Of a stretch of DNA of 57,071 nt, positions 14,220-31,185 are shown one piece after another. How positions within the stretch are numbered: position 1 is the stretch's first letter; each line of letters begins with the position of its first letter. The notes below the pieces were generated by a model. The model was not told where the DNA came from. It searched no databases and saw nothing but the letters and a program-made list of their open reading frames with translations. Made by a program: the position numbers and the translations under genes. The DNA is from a virus. The DNA lies in the IMG/VR virus record IMGVR_UViG_3300021959_007110, positions 1 through 57,071 of that record; one strand, given 5' to 3'.

Positions 14220-14304
14220 TGGCTGTGGAGGATGGAGTCGAACCATCACGCCTTTCGGCACACGAGAAACAGTCGTGCGTGTCTACCAGTTTCACCACCC
14301 CACA
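14220..14304 (-). tRNA. tRNA with GUU anticodon (Asn) on a class II, Leu-like body
   Basis: An 85-nucleotide cloverleaf including encoded CCA. Acceptor UGUGGGG/CUCCACA (one G-U), discriminator G73. D-arm GUG...CAC with loop AAACUGGUAGA, as in bacterial tRNA-Leu. Anticodon stem CACGA/UCGUG with loop CUGUUUC gives anticodon GUU. Variable arm of 13 nt forms UGCC-GAAA-GGCG. T-arm GAUGG-UUCGACU-CCAUC is normal. U1-A72, G73 and GUU agree with bacterial Asn identity, but Asn tRNAs have a short variable loop and A37; here a long arm and U37 are present. It follows the synthetase-like gene by five bases on the same strand, so they form one operon. Confidence 0.85.
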
Positions 14305-28422: not shown

Positions 28423-29354
28423 AGATACTAATAACAGGAGGGATGGGTTTTATAGGAGCACATCTAGTAGCAGAATTAGGACGGACTCATGACGTAGATA
28501 TACTTGACGGATTTACCGATGAGTATGTAGGCTATAAATATATTCATCGAGGTACAAAAGGTTTACAAGAAACTAATGAGATTGAGAAACGTCATAGAAA
28601 ACTCAATCTAAAGTATAGAATTGATTTAGTAAAAGGTAAATTCAATCAATACTATAAAAAATGGAGTTTTGAAGATATTCCAAGAGCAAACTATGATTTA
28701 GTACTTAACTTTGGAGCTTTGTCAGAAGCTATCCTATCACAACATTTTCCAAAATTTACTTCAGATTCTATAGTACAAGGATTAAGTTTAATTAAATTGT
28801 ACCTTCCTAAAACACCTGTTCTACATATAAGTAGTAGCATGGTTTACGGCACTTGGGAAGGAGTAATTGACGAGCAGTACTCTTTAGGAGCTGTGGACCA
28901 TTACGGGGACAGTAAAATAAAGGCAGAAACTATCTGCGGAGAGAATGATGTAATTTTGCGACCCATACATGTTTATGGTATGGGAGATGGTAAATTTTCA
29001 ATCTGGATGAATATAGAAAGACAGATTGCAGCTGCAAAACCTGTTATGGTTGAGAGAGCTGGTTGTATCTACATAGACGATTTCGTTTTAGCAATCAAAA
29101 ATATTTTAGACAGCTGGTGTCCTGGCATTTATAATATTTCATACGCATTTACGAGAAACGCGGAAGCACTGGCTAATATATATCCAGAGCCCTTTGATGT
29201 TCAGTATAAATCAGGACCAACGGGTAAACCAAGAGGGCTGCTAGATAATAGCAAACTAATAAATACATTTGATGTAAACTTTAAATTTACAAATTATGAT
29301 GATACAGTGAGAGACTACTATAGAAAATATGAAAATTTTTGTAAGAAACAATGA
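28419..29354 (+). CDS. NAD-dependent sugar epimerase/dehydratase (extended SDR)
   Basis: A 311-residue protein. Rossmann motif MKILITGGMGFIGAHLVAEL (GxxGxxG), then FGALSEAILSQHF, ISSSMVYGTWEGVI (catalytic Ser/Tyr region) and DHYGDSKIKAETI (Y-G-x-x-K instead of YxxxK spacing: HYGDSK). Later RPIHVYGMGDGKFS. It alters a nucleotide-sugar (epimerisation or dehydration). Starts ATGA-overlapping with the aminotransferase stop and ends overlapping bS21. Product unknown. Confidence 0.85.
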   Translation: MKILITGGMGFIGAHLVAELGRTHDVDILDGFTDEYVGYKYIHRGTKGLQETNEIEKRHRKLNLKYRIDLVKGKFNQYYKKWSFEDIPRANYDLVLNFGALSEAILSQHFPKFTSDSIVQGLSLIKLYLPKTPVLHISSSMVYGTWEGVIDEQYSLGAVDHYGDSKIKAETICGENDVILRPIHVYGMGDGKFSIWMNIERQIAAAKPVMVERAGCIYIDDFVLAIKNILDSWCPGIYNISYAFTRNAEALANIYPEPFDVQYKSGPTGKPRGLLDNSKLINTFDVNFKFTNYDDTVRDYYRKYENFCKKQ

Positions 29355-29646
29355 TGTTGGAAAAGCGCTTCGCATCTTAAAGAAAAAACTACATAATGAA
29401 GGTGTTATGAAAGAAGTGCGTGATAGGCGACATTTCATTTCTAGAGGTGAAAAATCAAGGTTAGCGGCTAAAGCAGGAGCAAAACGTTGGCAGAAGAAGA
29501 GACAAGATCTAGAAAAACAGTTCATTCGCGAAGAGCGAAATATGCTGCGAAATAGCAGGAAAAATAAACGCAATGTTCAAAGACCTAACAAAGGTTCAAA
29601 TCAACAGCGAACGCAACGTTACTCTGGCAATCAGAATAAACGATAA
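29329..29646 (+). CDS. rpsU: Ribosomal protein bS21 homologue
   Basis: A 105-residue protein. Residues 1-60 follow bS21: MKIFVRNNDVGKALRILKKK, LHNEGVMKEVRDRRHFISRG, EKSRLAAKAGAKRWQKKR. bS21 sits on the 30S platform near the anti-Shine-Dalgarno sequence and helps initiation. The protein carries an extra 40-residue Arg/Asn/Gln-rich tail (RKNKRNVQRPNKGSNQQRTQ) not found in host forms, which may contact viral mRNA. Phage bS21 is known from aquatic phages and is thought to steer ribosomes to viral transcripts. Overlaps the epimerase before it and the gene after it. Confidence 0.88.
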   Translation: MKIFVRNNDVGKALRILKKKLHNEGVMKEVRDRRHFISRGEKSRLAAKAGAKRWQKKRQDLEKQFIREERNMLRNSRKNKRNVQRPNKGSNQQRTQRYSGNQNKR

Positions 29647-30242: not shown

Positions 30243-30461
30243 ATGTACTACATTATTGAAATACATAATACAGAAAATGATGAAATAGGAGTAGTGACAG
30301 AAGAGATTGATGGTGAACAGACTATCAAAAAATTTGATACCTGGTCTAAAGCAAAGGCTATGTCTGGAACACTAAATAGAGATACCCCTGAAAATCTCTC
30401 TACTCACATAGTAACCATTAATGAAACTGCTACAAAAGATAAAGAAGTGGATAACGATTGA
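30243..30461 (+). CDS. Hypothetical protein, 72 aa
   Basis: ATG at 30243 gives MYYIIEIHNTENDEIGVVTE and a body rich in Glu, Ile and Thr (DGEQTIKKFDTWSKAKAMSG). A longer frame starts with TTG at 30144 inside the upstream gene; the ATG is favoured but AGG is far upstream. Not recognised. Overlaps the membrane protein gene by 41 bases. Confidence 0.5.
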   Translation: MYYIIEIHNTENDEIGVVTEEIDGEQTIKKFDTWSKAKAMSGTLNRDTPENLSTHIVTINETATKDKEVDND

Positions 30462-30807
30462 CCATTGTGTTGATCTTGTCGTTGATATATTATTAATTAT
30501 ATGGGAAGTTATCAGTAGTCCAATACTTATAGCTATGCGTCTTATAAGACACTTTGTAGGTGAGTGGTTTACTGAAAAAATTAAAGCATGTGTGCGTTGG
30601 ATAGTACATTGGTTTGCTCATAAACGTGCAGTTAGACTTGAAAAGGGACATGGAATATTCCGTACCTATTGGTACCTAATACTGCCGAGTCCTTTTATTA
30701 TTATCGCAATTTGGATGATTACAATGGTCAGCATTGGTATAGGGCAAGGTTATAATGAACTTAAAACAACTAAACCAGACAGCACATTGTTACAAATTTT
30801 TGAATAG
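30421..30807 (+). CDS. Membrane protein, 128 aa
   Basis: Begins MKLLQKIKKWITIDHCVDLV and has a hydrophobic stretch at residues 17-42, a Trp/Arg/His-rich amphipathic middle (CVRWIVHWFAHKRAVRLEKG), and a second membrane segment at 86-111 (YLILPSPFIIIAIWMITMVS). The stop TAG at 30805-30807 borders directly on the tmRNA acceptor piece. Possibly a receptor-blocking or holin-like protein; no family. Confidence 0.6.
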   Translation: MKLLQKIKKWITIDHCVDLVVDILLIIWEVISSPILIAMRLIRHFVGEWFTEKIKACVRWIVHWFAHKRAVRLEKGHGIFRTYWYLILPSPFIIIAIWMITMVSIGIGQGYNELKTTKPDSTLLQIFE

Positions 30808-31150
30808 AACTAGTGCTTCGTTTGAGGAGTAGTAAAATAGACGGGCTGGACTCGGGGGCAGTACCCGACGCCTCCACCATAAACACTTGGAGTAGAAAAT
30901 GGATGAAGTAGTAACTTATTTGCTATTGAGATTTGTACAATATGGATTAATAGCATTGTCAATTGGATCATTGCTTGAAGTGTTTATGATGGGGGCGAAC
31001 TAGGATCGACAGACGTAATAAAAACAATGCCGAGAAGCAGGTGCGCAAGCGACCTCAACCGCAAGAAAACAAACAATTGCAAATGATAATTTCGCAATCG
31101 AGGATTACCGCATAGCGGCATAATCTCACGGGGTATGGTTCCACCTAGCA
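30808..31150 (+). ncRNA. ssrA: Circularly permuted tmRNA (two-piece type)
   Basis: The 3' acceptor piece comes first (about 30808-30879): GACGGGCUGGACUCGGGGGC, T-stem UCGGG/CCCGA, CGCCUCC, A, CCA. The 5' piece starts at 30991: GGGGGCGAAC then GGAUCGAC, and GGGGGCG pairs with CGCCUCC (seven pairs, one G-U). Then AUGCCGAG and a PK1-like hairpin (AGGU...ACCU), and the tag ORF at 31079-31123: A-N-D-N-F-A-I-E-D-Y-R-I-A-A-stop. The 111-nt spacer is framed by TAAACACTT and AAGTGTTTA, which lengthen the acceptor stem in the precursor. Permuted genes of this kind are the norm in alphaproteobacteria. The outer ends of both pieces are estimates. Confidence 0.88.
30899..31003 (+). CDS. Small membrane protein encoded in the tmRNA spacer, 34 aa
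   Basis: ATG at 30899 with GGAG seven bases upstream. MDEVVTYLLLRFVQYGLIAL then SIGSLLEVFMMGAN: acidic start and one membrane helix. It lies in the 111-nt region removed when the tmRNA precursor is cut, and its last codons and stop (TAG 31001-31003) fall in the first 13 nt of the mature 5' piece. RNA processing would destroy this ORF, so it can only be made from unprocessed precursor. Could be a chance frame, but the ribosome binding site and composition argue for a gene. Confidence 0.45.
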   Translation: MDEVVTYLLLRFVQYGLIALSIGSLLEVFMMGAN

Positions 31151-31185
31151 ACAGAAAGGGCCTTTACAACTCTTATGAGGTTTTA

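Follow-up and report, generated by a model that had tools for sequence, protein, structure and literature searches.

Two-piece tmRNAs from circularly permuted genes are already a known kind of RNA in marine phages, since phage Melnitz of OM43 bacteria carries one (PMC9004378). In the same study, 53 of 133 distinct phage tmRNA structures, mostly marine or aquatic, were predicted to be two-piece. The 2025 tmRNA database described the permuted form with its intervening sequence and held 79 phage tmRNAs; in the portions of that paper covered here, single intervening sequences were reported with a tRNA or a repeat, and none with protein genes (PMC11915505). A literature search for ORFs in tmRNA intervening segments, with many older tmRNA papers outside its reach, found none, and no earlier report of protein genes in the intervening segment (IVS) was found. 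The locus described here lies in a window of 57,071 nt, which is the whole stretch of viral DNA that was analysed. It carried the same kind of permuted tmRNA and, nested in its IVS, a small ORF with signs of protein-level selection.

The permuted tmRNA and its surroundings

Searches with cmscan against Rfam revealed that the locus matched tmRNA_permuted (RF04321) at 30815-31123 with 105.6 bits (E 1.3e-19; cut-off 47) and alpha_tmRNA (RF01849) at 30757-31165 with 121.4 bits (E 1.3e-32; cut-off 50). Both matches were on the plus strand and far above the curated gathering scores. They confirmed the first-pass annotation, which had proposed a two-piece tmRNA encoded by the phage, circularly permuted and alphaproteobacterial in type, and had named the alpha_tmRNA model of Infernal as the check. 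The order that it had read, with the CCA-bearing acceptor piece ahead of the 5' piece, was the order in the Rfam alignment and in the fold, where the acceptor stem joined the two pieces by pairing of CGCCTCC (30869-30875) with GGGGGCG (30991-30997), the same pair as annotated. The T-stem and the tag ORF that it had recognised were also present (Table 1), and the tag frame had both a resume codon and a stop in the sequence and the Rfam alignment. The region 30846-31003 folded much better than shuffled sequence (z -5.4, 0/200). From this layout, cutting of the precursor into two pieces would be expected. ARAGORN in linear mode missed the tmRNA gene, and the sole tRNA that it reported in the window was an 85-nt tRNA-Asn (anticodon gtt) at 14220-14304 on the minus strand.

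A permuted tmRNA was found above the cut-off in 263 of 289 alphaproteobacterial genomes. The 150 spans among the matches listed had a median of 218 nt, and two of them reached at least 280 nt, whereas the span in the window was 309 nt. Two Pelagibacteraceae had IVSs of 12 nt. Among the longest-span bacterial tmRNA genes that could be parsed by the motif finder, no ORF of the kind described below, preceded by a Shine-Dalgarno site, was found. None of the bacterial genomes searched contained a 27-base core of the coding piece as an exact match, and most of what a pattern built on the IVS flank retrieved from bacterial genomes was unrelated sequence. The earlier suggestions that the split alphaproteobacterial format points to the host range and to tight control of stalled ribosomes were not supported; Melnitz has an alpha-type tmRNA and a non-alphaproteobacterial host. 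In its DNA polymerase, the window phage shared about 40% identity with T5-like Proteus phages.

Sugar-nucleotide and aminotransferase genes flanked the tmRNA locus. The glycan- and translation-related context next to bS21 that had been annotated held for the sugar genes and for bS21 itself, but "next to" was loose, as four ORFs and about 1.2 kb separate bS21, on the upstream side, from the tmRNA. No SmpB gene was found in the window, which is a contig fragment, or in eight related virus records, so the phage tmRNA would rely on SmpB of the host.

Table 1. Features at the tmRNA locus, in window positions
Feature	Position	Strand	Basis
Ribosomal protein bS21	29329..29646	+	phrog_21469, E 3.3e-9
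Upstream 128-aa ORF, probe for syntenic relatives	30421..30807	+	22 viral relatives; no PHROG match
tmRNA acceptor piece (3' piece of mature RNA, first in gene)	30815..30879, 5' end predicted	+	RF04321, RF01849
T arm, 5-bp stem and 7-nt loop	30852..30868	+	Rfam structure line, motif finder
Acceptor stem 3' strand, CGCCTCC	30869..30875	+	Rfam alignment, fold
Encoded ACCA after acceptor 3' strand	30876-30879	+	sequence
IVS, 111 nt, expected to be removed from precursor	30880..30990	+	between encoded CCA and coding-piece 5' G
IVS terminal stem 5' arm, TAAACACTT	30880..30888	+	pairs with 30978-30986 in fold
Shine-Dalgarno-like TTGGAG, 6 nt ahead of ATG	30887..30892	+	sequence; kept in most relatives
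Nested ORF, 34 aa, MDEVVTYLLLRFVQYGLIALSIGSLLEVFMMGAN and stop, one predicted membrane helix (hydropathy)	30899..31003	+	13 homologous loci, dN/dS
IVS terminal stem 3' arm, AAGTGTTTA	30978..30986	+	fold, covariation
tmRNA coding piece (5' piece of mature RNA)	30991..31165, 3' end approximate	+	RF01849 match ends 31165
UAG stop of nested ORF, inside tmRNA coding piece (GGGGGCGAACUAGGAUCGAC)	31001..31003	+	sequence
Tag reading frame GCA...TAA, ANDNFAIEDYRIAA and stop	31079..31123	+	sequence, aligned tag region

The nested reading frame and the IVS stem

The first-pass annotation described the locus without a protein gene in the IVS and overlooked the 34-aa ORF. This ORF ran through the 3' arm of the IVS terminal stem and stopped 10 nt past the start of the coding piece. 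The stem prolonged the acceptor stem beyond the CCA end, and 30846-31003 folded with it. Across 116 distinct viral IVS ends the stem covaried, with standard pairs at ten position pairs in 76-111 of the 116 sequences versus 51-95 with permuted partners, counts that are uncorrected for relatedness. Pairing in the stem may hide part of the nested ORF's ribosome-binding region, a point against its translation.

Homologues of the ORF were found at 13 viral loci in the viral contigs searched, every one of them within a permuted tmRNA. In one of these (L533), the Shine-Dalgarno-like site was TTGGGA. The substitution analysis was taken over 11 of the 13 members, two further members having been found besides, and gave pS of 0.54, pN of 0.18 and dN/dS of 0.22. 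The reading frame was free of stops in all members with 18 residues varying, while the other frames contained stops, and none of 500 column shuffles equalled it. Since the third-position excess by itself was weak (P 0.06), the support for this family came from dN/dS and the integrity of the frame. Shuffling of the window IVS yielded such an ORF in 0 of 2000 trials. On the other side, a tblastn search, for which a hydrophobic 34-aa query is hard, found homologues of this family neither outside tmRNA genes nor in the annotated phage collection. On the substitution and shuffle comparisons, the nested ORF is well supported as a protein-coding gene that would be expressed from the precursor.

Intervening segments of related phages

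IVSs were compared across 155 distinct viral permuted tmRNAs, a non-random set picked out by sequence patterns. Their lengths ranged from 12 to 318 nt, and since the set was collected in this way, the comparison with bacterial lengths is indicative only. At least 20 unrelated ORF families began within the IVS. An ORF of at least 25 aa with a Shine-Dalgarno site and ATG was present in 9 of 31 clusters with IVSs of at least 90 nt, versus 1.4 +/- 1.1 in shuffles (maximum 5). In 10 of the 11 families with several members that were tested, dN/dS was 0.02-0.37; the eleventh had too few differences. Roughly half of the families stopped inside the IVS and the others in the coding piece, like that of the window. 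About half of the nested products were predicted membrane peptides, and no convincing PHROG match emerged for the ten IVS ORFs scanned.

These data bear on whether the ORF is an accident in a long, meaningless spacer of an otherwise ordinary permuted phage tmRNA. IVS length varies freely in phages, and four IVSs (L145, L149, L171, L184), 71-97 nt in length and closed by long terminal stems, held no ORF; the window's ORF has only 34 codons and no family match. An accidental origin is nevertheless quite unlikely, given purifying selection in the 13 loci of the window's family and in nine other families and the failure of shuffles to give such an ORF. It also fits poorly with family F5, which lay within the IVS in 8 loci and was elsewhere a conventional gene that had a start of its own; many of these copies lay downstream of a tmRNA with a short IVS, at a distance of several hundred bases. 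A structured-RNA cargo was considered for the four long IVSs without an ORF and rejected, as their cores folded no better than shuffles.

Relatives of the window phage showed replacement of the ORF at the syntenic locus. One relative (L123), 94-95% identical to the window upstream and 89% downstream, had an IVS of 25 nt. Another (L130), with flanks 91% (upstream) and 84% (downstream) identical, held an unrelated 71-aa ORF in its IVS. In more distant syntenic relatives, other ORFs occupied the same site (for example L147, L154, L160, L176 and L182), and the window's ORF was also found in phages that otherwise shared little with the window (L241, L247, L306). The identical 25-nt IVS occurred with a changed acceptor pair (CATCTCC/GGGGATG) in L123, L129, L150, L155 and L175, as if IVS and acceptor stem had been exchanged together as a unit. 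Five relatives of the 128-aa gene (L124, L125, L126, L127, L132) had a permuted tmRNA upstream of that gene on the opposite strand, and three of the five had a different acceptor and T-arm sequence.

Most of the relatives are metagenomic contigs, which raises the question of assembly chimaeras or misjoined contigs. However, the same ORF families recurred in independent contigs with sequence divergence. Family F14 (54 aa, beginning MFKWLSKTRLVVITRDYF) lay within the annotated SsrA of cultured, independently sequenced Melnitz isolates, where no CDS was annotated; the site is L002 5942-6394 (MZ577097.1 45984-46436), and seven other viral loci shared the ORF. The isolate genomes refuted a chimaeric origin for F14, and for the nested ORFs as a whole this explanation is scarcely credible. 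A phage-type permuted tmRNA was also present in L441 (PBDU01000009.1), assigned to the MAG "Euryarchaeota archaeon SP339", and the ORF nested in it was nearly identical to the one at viral locus L084. This sequence is probably a misbinned phage contig, and misbinning of this type may account for some reported archaeal tmRNAs.

Proposed reading and comparison with known systems

The reading that we prefer, with a probability of about 0.75, is a phage-borne, permuted two-piece tmRNA of the alpha type, the IVS of which doubles as an exchangeable site for small protein-coding genes expressed from the tmRNA precursor. It draws on four features of the sequences: the permutation of the tmRNA, protein-level selection on the nested ORF, covariation in the IVS stem and replacement of the ORF at the syntenic locus. 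In the transcribed precursor, the 9-bp IVS stem would extend the acceptor stem beyond the CCA end, and the ORF would occupy the loop and the 3' arm. RNase P and the 3' processing enzymes of the host would release both tmRNA pieces to act together with the host's SmpB. Either ahead of processing or regardless of it, ribosomes would initiate at TTGGAG/ATG in the IVS and produce a 34-aa membrane peptide, terminating at the UAG inside the coding piece. The IVS would thereby be a nest: the stem and the tmRNA sequence on either side would fix its ends, and unrelated small genes would take the place of the ORF between them, for which homologous recombination in the conserved flanks of the tmRNA is the simplest route. 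The stem would keep processing independent of the cargo. The nested peptide probably has an accessory function in the interaction with the host.

The window's stop lies 10 nt beyond the expected RNase P site, and cleavage would therefore remove it. This suggests a different role, in which the ORF controls the tmRNA: translation through the acceptor strand would delay RNase P, or cleavage would make a nonstop message that is tagged by the tmRNA itself. A precedent exists in arfA, the nonstop message of which is held down by trans-translation (PMC10107115). We regard this role as unlikely. The stop position was not conserved across the ORF families, roughly half of which ended within the IVS, and close relatives had no ORF at all, so control would not be a general role. 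The varying stop positions ruled out that every nested ORF is built as a nonstop message, and the nonstop trait could thus belong at most to some families. A broader form of the preferred reading, in which the exchangeable IVS is a dedicated cassette site across a large group of marine phages, is put forward tentatively, with the odds rather against it. One transcript might then yield both a rescue RNA and an accessory protein, and in a subset the cut might remove the stop so that the tmRNA tags a peptide made from its own precursor.

Should the nested genes be expressed, annotation pipelines are missing a coding site in the discarded part of the tmRNA precursor, because the region called as tmRNA is left free of genes, as in Melnitz. 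The nested genes would add a class of very small phage proteins, co-expressed with ribosome rescue by their position, and would tie tmRNA maturation to translation in a way that can be tested. Expression would also suggest why two-piece tmRNAs persist in marine phages, since the permuted layout offers a free loop that is absent from one-piece genes.

The tmRNA of the window resembled those of RF01849 and RF04321 in the order of the pieces, the acceptor and T stems and the tag frame, whereas the alpha_tmRNA of hosts differed in having short IVSs. The Melnitz tmRNA was likewise phage-borne, permuted and of the alpha type, and its 142-nt IVS carried the conserved 54-aa ORF F14, but its flanking genes and its nested ORF were different. 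In the portions covered here, the Melnitz paper described a glutamine riboswitch and no IVS ORF (PMC9004378). Group I introns in tmRNA with homing endonuclease genes also place a protein gene in a removed part of the precursor (PMC11915505). There, the gene is carried by a self-splicing intron in the T loop, while in the window it lies in the IVS of a permuted gene, which is expected to be cleaved and not rejoined, and many unrelated small ORFs occur at such sites. The arfA message is similar in that its stop codon is lost by RNA cleavage, which makes ribosome rescue necessary (PMC10107115). There, the cut is made by RNase III and the product is a rescue factor, whereas the link to rescue in the window is positional only and the likeness extends to some of the ORF families.
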